Origin: Tetradesmus obliquus
Taxonomy: Eukaryota; Chlorophyta; Chlorophyceae; Sphaeropleales; Scenedesmaceae
DNA length: 64,000 bases
Assembly: GCA_030272155.1 (NCBI GenBank)
Contig: CP126199.1
Span: forward strand, 5,134,501 to 5,198,500
Reading direction: 5' to 3'
Shown here: positions 423-55,300 of the stretch, piece after piece
Position numbering within the stretch: the first letter of the stretch is position 1
How the letters are laid out: each line of letters opens with the position of its first letter
Made by a program: the position numbers and the translations under genes
Notes under the pieces: model-generated
The model's input: the letters and a program-made list of their open reading frames with translations, nothing else
The model's database searches: none
What the model was told of the DNA's origin: nothing

Positions 423-3400
423 CCAACTCAGCAGCAGCAGGCAGCACTAACAGTAGGCCTTACAGCAGGAGGCCCAAGCCGGTTGTGGGCTTTGTCATGA
501 AGGTATCTGAAATGCAAAAAGATCGACAGATCAGGACTAGTCCCTGCCAGTGCTTGCACATTAGCGGCTGATGTTCCTGCCTCTCAGCTGCCGCAGAGTG
601 CATGTGTTTTAGTGCGCGCCTAGCTCTGCAGCAGTGCACACTGCATGGCAAACTGTGATGTGCAAGTCTGCGCATGCTGCCGCTGGCGAGGCTGTTTTGG
701 CACCGCTGCTCAGCTATTAGATGCATGTATATGCATGTCTTGTTTCTGCGGCTGCTCTGCGCAGGTGGGAGCTGATGCTGCTGCAGAGGCCGTTGTGCAG
801 CGCATGAAGGCAGTAGACACTGTGAAGACCGTCGTGAATGACGTCTGCGTGCGATCAACGCAGGGTGAGCGACAGGGCGCTGGGTGGACGGGTGCGGACA
901 ACCTGCAGCTCAGCGCACGCAGCTGCAGCTGTGTCGCCGACTCTGCACAATGAATGGCTATACATCTCATTGCCTGGCTTGCACAGGATCATCCTGTGGC
1001 AGTAGTTCTGCGTACAACCTGAAGCAGGCGCCAGTCTTGCAGCAGCGATGCCTTGGCGCTGTGTGGCATGCTCGTGCTTGGCAGCCCTTAGGTATGTATG
1101 ATGTCCTCCAGCTGCATCCCTGGCAAATGTATGGCATTGTCAAAACAGTGTTTGATGAGTTCATCCCTTTTGCGATGTGTTTCAACACTGCTGCTATTTG
1201 CAGCTGGGTTGTCGCCTGCCAGTTTCAGCTGCATCCCCGCGCCGATGCTGTCTGGCATCACCAAGCAGCCCAGCGAGGCGGCAGCAGCAGCCTGGCGCAA
1301 CTGCAGCGGCAGCGGCACCAAGCTCGCCTGGTGGGGCGAGAAGTGCGGCAGCAGTGGCTGCCAGATCCAGTGGGCTGGCGTGTATGCATTTGATGCTGGC
1401 ACTGGAGCAGTGCTGCCAAACTGTGTGAAGACTCGGCCGCAACAAGCGGCATTGTCAAATGACACGGTGATGTGGCTTGGTGATTGCGGGGTGCAGCCGG
1501 GGGCCGTTCCAGACATGCCTACAATCACATGCACTGACGAGTTTGCAGGTGAGCTTAGCAGTGCTGTTTGATCACATAGCACGTTACACTGCCATATGTC
1601 GTGACACGACTATACAAGGCAGGTGGGAGTAGCTGGTCTGTTCACTAAGGAATGGAGACTGCAATGATCTGGGATACAATATTCATGCAGCTGCAAAATC
1701 CGTGTACTGCCGGATGCTGCTTGAAATTTTCTTTTGACCACTTGCTGTCTGTGCCTTTGCAGCTGCCATCTCCAGCCAGGAGCAAGCAGACAGCATGGTC
1801 AAGCAGGGCTGCATTGGCTTTGGGGCTGCCATCACACAAACCCTGGACGCACCACACCCAGTGCCCGGCTGCGGCCAGCCGATGCTGTCCATGGTGTACA
1901 CCGGAGAGCTCTGCAGCAGCGGCAGCAGCGCAATGGGCATCAGGTGGCTGTCAGCAGCACCAGCGCCAGGATCCACCGCAGACGCCACCAAATGCAGCAT
2001 CATACGCGTTGCAAACCCTGCAACAGCCGCAGATTTCCTGTACAACAAAGAGTGGTTTGGTGGCTGCGGCGTGCCGCCTGCGAGGGTGCAGTTCTTGGCA
2101 CGTGGGCAGTGCCCGCCGCCGCCACCGCCGCCACCACCCCCGCCCCCCTCCCCGCCGCCGCCCCCGCCGCCCCGCCAAAGGACACAGCTGCCACGTGGTA
2201 CGCTTCTGCGCTGCGTGATGTGATGACTTTTGATCGTTGTTATCACCTGCATTTGCATTCTTTACATGCAGCAGTCGCTGCAGATGTTTTCCTGTTGCAA
2301 TAGAGGCATGCCTTGGCCTGCCTGAGCAGCAGCTGCAGCTGCACGCGCTCGCAATCTTTGCATGATTCAGCTGCCAGATGCTGTTGGTCGTCCATCAGAT
2401 CCGTCCTTGATGCATCCTGCTGCTGCTGCTGCCGCAGTGCCTGTGGACACTGCGGGGTCTCAGACAGTGCCGACCGGCATGGGCCGCATCATGGTGAGGC
2501 CCGCTTAAGCACATTTGTCATTTTTTCTGTTAATAACAAAACGTTGGTAGCAATTCATCATAATGATAAACAACAGTGCCCTCTGGCATGGCCCGCATCA
2601 TGGTGAGTGGCAGCTGCCTGTGCTGCAGTGCCAGGCTGCACTTTGTGCTTCCAACCAAAATAGGCAAAGTACATCCTATAAGCACAGGCCTTGCATGGCA
2701 AAACAAGCTGTACTGCGTGCCCCATGGTATGTTACGCAGGATGCTGCGTTCCTGTGACACCTTGTGCACATGTGTGCATCGCCCTGCCGCTGCTCACCGC
2801 AGGCTGTCACCACGAACGCCGCAACCGGCCAGCTACAGACTGCTGCACCTGTGTTCCCTAGTGCAGTGGCAGTGATCGACAGCGGCGTACAGTGCAACCA
2901 CCCAGACCTGAATGTTATTTTCACCAAGCAGTTCAACGATGAGCGCAGCCCTGACCCTAACAGGGATGGCGGCTGCTATGATGGCTTGGGGCACGGCACA
3001 CATGTCTCTGGTGAGTGGTGGTGGTTACTTGTCGATATGCTGATGATTTTGCAGCAATGTTGGCTTTGCGACGTGTATGTGATGCTTTTCCAGCAAACAT
3101 GGCTGTTACGACGGCCTGGGGCACGGCACACGCGTCTCTGGTGAAAGGTGGCAGCGGATCTGAGGTTGAGGTTGAGGTTCAGGACTGTTTGCTCTGACTG
3201 CATATGCTGTGGTGCTTTTCTGCGGCTTCAAACTATTGCTCTGATGGCTTGCGATAAGCCACGTGGCCCATACTACTGCCATCCTTACTCAAGCATGTTG
3301 CTGCTGCTGCTGCTGTAGGTACAATTGGTGCCCTCAACAATGCCTATGGTGTGCTGGGCGTGCTCCCAGGTGAGCTGCCACTGTCGAGCATGCAGCAGCG

Positions 3401-52377: not shown

Positions 52378-55300
52378 GGAAGCAGGCACAGAGAGAAGCT
52401 CCGCTAGCGGTGCTCCAGCAGCAGCTGCTGGTGACGCATCAGCTGCGCCACCTGCTGCCTCTGATGCTTGCATGGTAGCTGTTGCTGCTGCTGCGGCTGG
52501 CTGCAGCAGCCAGTCTCCGTCCAGCGGGGCTGGGTCATACAGCACATCTGCACAAGCATTACAAAGCACATGCAGCCACAAATCGTCAAGTAACACTGCA
52601 GTTAGACAGGATTGTCACGGCTGCCGTGCACGTGTAGGAACAGAGATTCTTCCTCATTGACAAGCTGCCACAAATGGCGAGCACCACGCAGCGCACGCAA
52701 CCTAGAATACCGATGCGTTCACTACATGAGCCTCGAGGCAAACTCACCTGCAACGCAGTCCTCAAATGACAAGCTGCCGCGGACGGCCAGCACCACGCAG
52801 CGCACACATGCTAGATGCTAGGTAAAGACGCTATTGCTATGTTCACCATGAGGCAGACTCACCAGTCACGCAGTCCTCCACGCTCAGGCTGCCGCGTATG
52901 GCCAGCACCACGCAGCGCGCCGCCTCGTCCAGCGCCACGCTGTACGGCAGCAGCCCCTCCACCAGGTTGGCGTAGTTCACGTGCAGCAGCGCCGCCTCGG
53001 GGATGCGCGCCGTCTGCACGGCATAGCATTACAAGTATCGACGTCTCAAAAGAGTAATGCATTGATGAGGCATTACAGCAGAGAGCTTGCAAGGCAATTG
53101 CATGGCAGCAGCCCCTCCACCAGGTTGGCGCAGTTCACGTGCAGCAGCGCGGCCTCGGGGATGCGCGCCGTCTGCAGCAATGCAAGCACACACACAGAGT
53201 GCAGTAGAGCGCATTAGACAGATTGGCACAGAGCCTGTGCTGCTGGCACAGCAGCAGCCGCTTCAAGAGTAGGATGCGCGTAGCCTGAAGCACAGATTTC
53301 AGTCAAGAGACCATTGAAAGGCATGGCAGCAGCCCCTCCACCAGGTTGGATTACTTCACATGCAGCAGCGTGGCCTCGGAGATGCGCGCCGTCTGCACAG
53401 CACAGCATTGAATTTCAAACCCAATGGACAAACATGGCAGCACAGCCTCCTGCTTGGGCTGCAGAGACAGCAACCTAAGACAGGGCTGAGCACTTGCTAT
53501 GCAATGGCGGCACGTCAGTTTATTCAAACATTACACGAAGCGGTCCAGCCATTTTGTGCATGTTGAGGTTTGTGCACCAACGCCCTCACATAGCTATATA
53601 TGCCAGGGGACCTCAGCCACGCCCATTCACCTGTACAATGGCTTCTCGTGTCAGCCGCTGAGAGGCAGTCAGCGGCTCCATCTTGGGAACATGGCTGGGG
53701 CCCCACTCGCCACCAAAGCAGCCGCCACAGCAGCAGCTGCTGTCACCTCGCAGCGTGCCAACTGCAATGCCAGCTCCACGCACACCTTGTGTGCTACCAG
53801 CAGCAGCAGCATCTGGCTTGGCAAACGAGGGCGGCAACTTGGTGCTGGTGTTGCCGTCTGCGGCGCTGCTGCTGCTGCTGGTGAGCTGCTGCCTGGAGAG
53901 GGTGCTGCTGCCGGGGCGCATGCGTGTAGCCGGCGCTGCTGCTACTGGCGAGTCTGAGCCCATGCAGCTGCTGCTGCCATCTTCCACGTCCCAGCTGGCG
54001 CTGCTGTTGGCAGCCAGTGGGGCAGAGGCGCTCAGCTGCCTGCTGCACGGCTGCTGCTGACGCAGTTGCTGCCGCATGTTTTGTTGCTGGTCTCCAGGGC
54101 TGCTTGATGCACCTGCAGCGACGCTTGCGTGCCCAGCAGCACTGCCAGCAGCAGCTGTCCCATGCTGTGCACCTGTTTCCTCCTCACATGCCCCCTCCAC
54201 TGCTTCAGCCAGTGCCCTGGCACCTGACCCGGCAGCGACAGCAGCTGCAGCAGACCCCTGCTGCGCTGCCTTGCTGCCCGCCACCACACCACCCCCAGCA
54301 GATGCCACCTGCGCTGCTGCTGTGAGAGATCTGATCTCTGCTGCTGCACCTGCCTCACTTAGGCCATCCACCTCAGTGCCGAGGCTGGCGCTGCTGCTGG
54401 TCCTGCCATGTAGCTCGACGCCTCGCTGCATGCAGCGGTAGCAGCCGCCACAGCACAGCCGGCAGCAGCGCAGCGCCCTGCACGCGCAGCAGCAGCACGT
54501 ATTTTGTGTCGCTATGGGTGTCTGTCCGAGCCTGCTATGTGCCTGAACCAGCCTTCAAAGCAGGGTTTGATAGTGCAGCTGTAGTGTTATCAGCATTGCT
54601 AGCTGTGGTGTGCTTCACTGCAGGCAAAAGGCCTGCCAGGGACTGCGTACCTGTATCTGTGTGACCACAGGAACATGGGCCAGCCGTATATAGCGTTGGC
54701 ATACCTGCAAGCAAACAGCAGCAGAGCAAACTACTTGCATGCTCCTCCAGTGTCCAGCAGACACCACTGCAACAGCGTTACACGTGCATGCATGCCAAGC
54801 ACACAACATGCACCGCAACACAAGCATTCCGTATGACAACAGAACCCTGCAGATCAGCTCACCTATGCCAATGCAGTGCTTCTTCCAGCAGATCCAAGTC
54901 CACGCTGCTGCCATCAGACAGCACAGCAGCAGCACCAGCAGCAGCAGCTTCTGTGGCGTCCACACTAGCAGCCGGGTTTGGCCCTGCTGCGCTGCCTTCA
55001 CCTGCTGCGGCCGCTGCTGCTGCCTGCGGCTTAGCCTCCGATTCATCATCATCTGCTGCTGCAGCAGCAGCAGCTGCTTGTGACATGGTTGCTTGCTGCA
55101 GGGTTGGCAGGGGTGGTCTACCCCGGCTGCTTGCAGCAGCAGTGCTGGTGCTGCTGCTGCTGGCTGCTGCCGGCTGAGCCTGCCCCAACAGCTTGTGCTT
55201 ATGCTGCTGCTGCTTACCTAACCTAGAGCTGCTGCTGCCTTTCACATCTTGAAGTGGAGCTTCAGCATGTGCTCTAGCCGTGGTGCAGCTGTATGCTGCG

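Follow-up and report, generated by a model that had tools for sequence, protein, structure and literature searches.

How introns lengthen and where new intron sequence arises are open questions, and they are raised by a 64,000-nucleotide stretch of the genome of the green alga Tetradesmus obliquus (NCBI GenBank assembly GCA_030272155.1, contig CP126199.1, positions 5,134,501 to 5,198,500), which we refer to as the window. An earlier note, made from the letters of this stretch, had described introns that hold copies of the adjoining exon end together with its splice site, here called exon echoes. We compared the window with itself and scanned splice junctions in and beyond it, and these analyses show that the echoes are real and that they extend beyond the window. 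Roughly one exon edge in nine carries decaying copies of itself, splice signal included, in the adjoining intron. With intron sequence made from the adjoining exon, at many stages of decay, present at roughly a ninth of the junctions beyond the window, the rate, boundaries, and fate of such sequence become measurable in a single genome.

Echoes are concentrated at splice junctions

The assembly comprises 104.66 Mb in 17 contigs, from which we took the window and 250 kb from three other contigs, at arbitrarily picked places, giving a sample of 314 kb to which the counts below refer. All gene models except that of a topoisomerase gene were supplied by a simple ab initio gene-finding hidden Markov model (HMM) trained on the same 314 kb, which returned six multi-exon models inside the window. 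The HMM fuses adjacent genes and labels some echoes as exons, so that the junction counts include some echo edges and are inflated; a trusted subset is restricted to real exons of at least 75 bp and holds 72 junctions. Queries of 46 bases were used, from −40 to +6 for donors, searched downstream, and from −6 to +40 for acceptors, searched upstream, in both cases within 600 bp.

A direct intron-side copy was found at 63 of 433 donors (14.5%) and 64 of 428 acceptors (15.0%). The window is richer in echoes than the rest of the sample (51 of 214 junction rows versus 74 of 718), and with it left out the rates were 11.0% of 337 donors and 11.7% of 334 acceptors. One-sided control rates were 5.3% in exon interiors (n = 1203), 2.9 to 3.0% in intron interiors (n = 2613), 1.2 to 1.3% in intergenic DNA (n = 1228), this class being merely DNA left uncalled by the HMM, and 0.05% for a random-window null. 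Such duplications are therefore not equally frequent in exon interiors and intergenic DNA, where the rates are lower than at junctions. Among the copies, 127 were direct and a single one was inverted, and chance or low complexity is excluded as their source by the random-window and own-gene nulls together with this orientation bias. When the query was slid along the sequence, matching reached a maximum at the junction, dropped on either side, and showed a mirror maximum ∼75 to 125 bp inside the intron.

The copies derive from the adjoining exon, and the donor and acceptor types, both of which had been reported, are equal in frequency (62 and 63 rows). At least one echo was present in 20 of 39 multi-exon gene models (15 of 33 without the window), and at 30 of the 72 trusted junctions there are two or more. 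Echo-bearing introns are longer, as had been suspected, with a median of 353 bp (n = 35) compared to 270 bp for those without (n = 239; Mann-Whitney P = 0.0036). All seven intervals that the earlier note had singled out hold local direct copies by self-comparison, which revealed dozens of direct local duplications in the window at offsets of about 100 to 480 bp, and six of the seven were also recovered in the junction scan. A scan made independently of junctions yielded 102 nonredundant local duplications with at least 85% identity, of which 90 involve exon sequence, 5 are intron only, 4 are intergenic, and 3 are other, some of the exon-exon pairs being echoes miscalled as exons or repeats within coding sequence.

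A hand-assembled topoisomerase gene carries echoes

As a reference independent of the gene finder, we assembled by hand a type IA topoisomerase I gene with an HMG-box C terminus (27058 to 36809, plus strand). Its 16 exons encode 1304 residues, the first exon being probably incomplete at its 5′ end, and with all echoes spliced out the reading frame runs for 1304 codons with its sole stop as the last codon. Its product aligns with type IA topoisomerase I chains of solved structure and with green-algal homologs such as those of Chlamydomonas, Volvox, and Haematococcus, the best homolog among the matches listed being 54% identical, and the HMG box was found. Twelve of the 15 junctions, including all that bear echoes, were inspected against five algal homologs, and 9 of them are contiguous in all five. 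Junctions 29698|30091 and 33223|33474 are contiguous in four homologs, with a 15-residue insert or gap in P0001. At 27945|28404, P0001 carries at least 23 inserted residues, the point at which the other homologs resume is not visible in the printed columns, and the solved-chain alignment crosses the junction with a short unmatched segment. By eye, neither homolog insert resembles an echo translation.

Seven of the 15 introns contain echoes, amounting to 12 copies with a score of at least 20 at four donors and four acceptors, with one intron echoed at both ends. Compared with their own intron, 8 of 30 exon ends reach this score, whereas none of 420 comparisons with the other introns of the gene does, and the best inverted score is 15. 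Donor echoes at 28035 to 28079 and about 28210 to 28240 follow the exon tail 27904 to 27948 (91% and 87% identity; scores of 36 and 20), and the region 29638 to 29953 holds the exon tail 29638 to 29703 with donor echoes at 29760 to 29826 (79% identity) and 29914 to 29950, both scoring 27. A further donor echo, at 33290 to 33335, repeats the tail 33180 to 33225 (87% identity, offset 110). Acceptor echoes at 29019 to 29087 and 32602 to 32659 precede the exon heads 29130 to 29199 and 32730 to 32788 (both 81% identity, offsets 112 and 128). The doubly echoed intron (region 30549 to 31305) has a donor echo at 30795 to 30830 and an acceptor echo at 31158 to 31193 (89% and 86% identity; scores of 27 and 26). 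A tandem acceptor array with a period of about 117 (35145 to 35589; 3.5 copies and 93% matches by Tandem Repeats Finder [TRF]) places echoes at 35150 to 35192, 35264 to 35309, and 35382 to 35427 before the real exon head at 35505.

Anatomy and decay of the copies

A typical copy comprises ∼50 nucleotides of exon end and a few intron bases, separated from the original by a spacer of ∼72 bp. In 42 spaced events, the copy measured 52 ± 16 bp, the spacer 72 ± 24 bp, and the offset 124 ± 21 bp. Donor copies mostly span from about −30 to −60 to about +3 to +20, and acceptor copies mostly from about −4 to −10 to about +30 to +70. The middle half of the offsets below 190 bp falls between 110 and 131 bp, with a second peak at 200 to 260 bp, and true tandem arrays at junctions have TRF periods of 113 to 121, matching the offset peak of the spaced copies. 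Trusted echo offsets show a mild excess of remainder 1 on division by 3 (35/19/18 for remainders 1/2/0).

The copies had been described as tandem, which holds in the strict sense for a minority, most being spaced. Among 71 copies with an exon-part identity of at least 0.85, the intron part is recognizably alike in 21 (above the 99th percentile of the null, with about 1% expected), and by a strict length rule 7 of the 102 local duplications are contiguous. Identity just outside the copy is at chance level, with residual gapped similarity on the intron side in 5 of the 42 spaced events. Among 54 pairs of echoes in which both members are intronic, 21 have an exon-derived part at least 0.85 identical but only 6 of these 21 have an intron part above the null, so the exon-derived part is alike even between intronic copies. 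At B3:44.7-45.2 kb, one array has a real exon head that agrees with its nearest echo at 34 of 34 exon bases while their intron part is 0.72 alike, and in an array at B1 junction 22952 two spacer types alternate.

The echoes decay free of coding constraint. In 66 trusted spaced events, mismatches at the three codon positions were 104/1211, 93/1211, and 209/1191 (8.6, 7.7, and 17.5%), and 75 of 77 indel runs were not a multiple of 3, as predicted for a free copy facing a constrained exon. The same data lead us to reject a function of the echoes at the protein level and speak against duplication of alternative or mutually exclusive exons, as the copies do not keep frame and protein constraint. 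The claim that the splice dinucleotides are often kept stands in part: with a mean identity of 0.877, AG was retained in 23 of 30 cases, which equals the neutral expectation of about 0.77, whereas GT was retained in 30 of 32, above expectation, a weak excess given that alignments tend to end there. Acceptor echoes that were not called as exons and whose copy ends within 11 nucleotides of the junction (n = 14) have a pyrimidine content of 0.608 ± 0.028 at −30 to −12, outside the copied part, compared to 0.489 at 1753 randomly chosen GCAG sites in introns and 0.51 to 0.53 in ordinary introns at that distance. This retained flank makes the echo sites look like former or duplicated acceptors.

Spacers and a dispersed core

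In genome searches, five of six spacers were single copy and the sixth held a dispersed core of ∼42 bp. The spacers have a G+C content of 0.48, versus 0.54 to 0.55 at ordinary intron ends, and are T rich on the sense strand at both ends. Beyond the echo, the sequence is like that of an ordinary intron end. As had been claimed, the echoes are not a shared mobile element, the repeated part being the local exon and five of six spacers being unique.

The spacer of the youngest echo matches seven other places, three of which, in addition to the query locus, have flanking echoes, clearly in two cases and weakly in one. These matches belong to a dispersed element that has a core conserved over about 37 to 42 bp and lies on either strand in introns and intergenic DNA (C1:2033308-2033396 [L028] and L029 to L035), and a degenerate copy of the core is present in the window at 38623 to 38660. 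A profile search of the 314 kb together with seven fetched loci gave 24 matches, some of them weak. We reject a mobile family of spacers, as most profile matches lack flanking copies, 9.7% of 734 random intron positions also lie between local repeats, and the five other spacers are unique.

How the echoes may have arisen

The explanation that we tentatively consider best, at somewhat under an even chance, is local duplication across the junction followed by homogenization anchored in the exon. Short local duplications with a unit of about 110 to 135 bp would span the exon-intron junction, and the echoes would be their remnants. Such a duplication could be tolerated if the copy attached to the exon kept a working splice site while the spare was spliced out, the intron growing by one unit. 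The exon, held by purifying selection, would then serve as an anchor. Gene conversion at short range, together with unequal exchange, between this exon and its echoes would renew the exon-derived half; the intron-derived half would drift beyond recognition, and the spaced copies that remain would have their ends at the splice site. An array of this kind would behave like a minisatellite seeded by the exon edge.

The tandem arrays, the period that they share with spaced copies, and the intron homology that is left suggest that about a third of the cases originated in tandem duplication across the junction, and unequal exchange would give both the clustering of several echoes at one junction and the alternating spacer types at B1 22952. 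Fold-back template switching is disfavored because the copies are direct, 127 to 1. Exon-anchored homogenization is favored because exon-bounded homogenization appears between two subtilase-like genes of the window (PF00082 in two exons). Their exon blocks at 1750 to 2174 and 9569 to 9993 are 94.4% identical over 425 bp, compared to 62 to 84% for the other exon blocks, and identity drops to 0.40 to 0.47 within about 50 bp upstream of the acceptor of this exon. This looks like exon-bounded gene conversion or homogenization.

Several results weigh against this explanation. Conversion from exon to echo was not observed directly. No homology of the intron part was found in 50 of the 71 well-kept copies or in 11 of the 17 with an exon part of at least 0.95, and among spaced events with at least 94% identity, residual intron-side similarity was seen in 1 of 11, the other 10 being at chance. 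In crude two-copy simulations, the ratio of junction to intron visibility was 1.2 to 1.7, reaching up to 3.7 with introns evolving three times faster, and the observed bias of 90 exon-involving to 5 intron-only duplications exceeds every simulation. The spaced-to-tandem ratio of 50:21 was matched by simulation only with the faster intron rate. Either introns turn over unusually fast, therefore, or the birth process favors junctions, and homogenization alone is rejected as a full account. The recurrent duplication process at splice junctions that the earlier note had proposed is possible, and selection together with the longer recognizability of the exon half yields part of the pattern. A bolder proposal, which we regard as unlikely, is that a copying process directed to splice junctions and active in this algal lineage repeatedly writes the ∼50 first or last exon bases and the splice core into the adjoining intron, spaced at ∼120 bp, and does so in about half of the multi-exon gene models; if true, directed copying would be a main route of intron lengthening in the lineage.

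Two other origins of the spaced copies are rather improbable, and to a similar degree. The exon end and splice core could have been copied to a nearby intron site, through two template switches on the same strand or exchange at cryptic splice-like sites, with the spacer being native intron. Copy boundaries at the splice core, spacers that are unrelated even at 96 to 100% copy identity, and the mostly single-copy spacers agree with such an insertion; however, the pyrimidine-rich flank of acceptor echoes is unexpected at random insertion points, the spacers have a lower G+C content than ordinary intron ends, and the offset peak common to spaced copies and tandem arrays is left unexplained. Alternatively, breaks about 50 bp apart, one of them at the splice site, could have been filled in and joined around a filler of ∼72 bp, in which case the spacer would be the former filler and the echo the stretch that was duplicated. 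This would account for the copy-spacer-copy anatomy, for spacers richer in A+T than ordinary intron ends, and for the ordinary intron end beyond the echo. The filler at acceptors would, however, have to bring a pyrimidine tract, so that donors should exceed acceptors, which they do not; five of six spacers have no genomic source, and their sense-strand T richness at both ends is unexpected for random filler.

Compared with junction-spanning duplication and exon-anchored homogenization, a pure effect of visibility, in which tandem duplications arise evenly but can be detected for longer at junctions owing to the constraint on the exon copy, appears highly improbable. It is true that the exon half keeps its likeness longer and that plain tandem repeats make up some of the arrays, but intronic echo-echo pairs also keep chiefly the exon-derived part, only 5 of 102 duplications are intron only although introns make up half of the sequence, and simulations with zero conversion gave a ratio of 1.2 to 1.3 at equal rates and 3.1 with faster introns. 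Plain neutral tandem duplication was likewise rejected as an account of all cases, given the chance identity beyond the copy and the mainly exon-derived likeness of echo-echo pairs. An assembly or gene-prediction artifact is hardly credible: most gene models are ab initio and some echoes called as exons inflate the counts, but copies that have diverged and differ in their spacers cannot be duplicates made by assembly, and the pattern is seen in the topoisomerase gene, which was checked by homology and did not depend on the gene finder.

The suggestion that duplication at junctions might create introns did not hold up. A copy abutting the opposite splice site, the layout expected of intron birth by duplication, was found in 3 of 388 introns, and two of these 3 cases lie within echo arrays. 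The echoes lengthen existing introns.

Relation to known systems

Minisatellites under concerted evolution have units homogenized along their length. The echoes resemble them in having units near 100 bp in length, a copy number of two to five, and a higher-order A-B-A-B pattern, but in most arrays the intron half of the unit is not homogenized and one copy is fixed as a coding exon. In plants, break repair that is patch mediated or starts from paired nicks gives tandem duplications of tens of base pairs, sometimes with filler, features in which the echoes are similar; we know of no preference of these duplications for splice junctions. Intron gain by tandem genomic duplication has reportedly occurred in potato.

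A review (PMC3443670) and a Drosophila study (PMC2891723) establish intron gain by tandem duplication of an exon segment containing AGGT. As there, local exon sequence with splice-like signals is duplicated here and one copy is intronic; in the process described there, however, the intron is new and equals the duplicated unit, whereas here the junction preexists and the intron is lengthened. Introners, according to one report (PMC9860276), occur mainly in lineages that evolve fast, green algae among them, and likewise give many intron-associated sequence gains in one genome. They are described there as one element at many sites, some with target duplications of 3 to 9 bp, whereas here the local exon is repeated, most spacers are unique, and the flanking repeat is a 52 ± 16-bp copy of the exon end. 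The nearest report concerns Chlamydomonas and Volvox, in which tandem repeats are concentrated near intron ends (PMC3887541); the accessible portion describes them as short motifs and not as exon-end units. No description of exon-end copies filling introns was found in titles and abstract beginnings of the open-license PubMed Central articles that full-text searches listed. The known kind is local duplication across splice signals, and its scale, the lengthening of introns, and the exon-bounded copies are not described as far as the literature was searched. The echoes are also a hazard for annotation, given their splice-like edges and coding-like sequence, and our ab initio finder called several of them exons.

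Other loci in the window

The two subtilase-like genes bear echoes at homologous junctions, donors 3010 and 10824 and acceptors 4128 and 11908, and by eye the echoes each resemble the exon of their own gene. In the first gene (plus strand), a donor echo at 3101 to 3151 repeats the exon tail 2971 to 3021 (84% identity, offset 130) and three acceptor echoes (3682, 3798, and 3926; region 3672 to 4208) precede the exon head at 4128 with 78 to 83% identity. In the second (plus strand), the donor echo at 10951 to 11009 repeats the tail 10773 to 10831 (92% identity, offset 178) and two acceptor echoes with a period of 120 (11654 to 11941; TRF, 2.4 copies, 82%) precede the head at 11908. Side-by-side (CTGT)n and (TGGA)n tetranucleotide arrays occupy 4709 to 5137.

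Further plus-strand arrays include, at 8281 to 8716, an exon tail with three echoes in tandem in which the intron part is repeated too (period 113; TRF, 3.0 copies, 96% matches) and, at 24623 to 25175, an exon tail that occurs three times together with its donor (80 to 81% identity). TRF and self-comparison also detected an array of exon-head copies mixed with CTG repeats at 12990 to 13449 (plus strand, period 88 to 109); the interval 12983 to 13453 was miscalled by the HMM as a minus-strand exon and is therefore missing from the junction counts. Also on the plus strand are a donor echo at 38734 to 38768 of the tail 38550 to 38584 (94% identity, offset 184), an array with a period of 238 at 39681 to 40244 (TRF, 2.4 copies, 90% matches), an acceptor echo at 40485 to 40587 of the head 40617 to 40716 (81% identity, offset 129), and an acceptor echo array at 41407 to 41950 before an exon head at about 41899 (TRF, 3.1 copies, 77%; one pair at 80% identity). 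On the minus strand, an acceptor echo at 49220 to 49291 repeats the head 49089 to 49160 (88% identity, offset 131), and the exon 52863 to 53013 is echoed on its acceptor side at 53104 to 53176 (97% identity) and 53321 to 53397 (91%, measured against the first echo) and on its donor side at 52735 to 52803 (83%).

A long open frame at 41890 to 45720 contains 14 matched stretches of a spondin-like TSP1 domain. Tandem repeats within apparent coding sequence, unlike the junction arrays, lie at 42453 to 44249 (period of about 171) and 59224 to 59806 (period of about 318).

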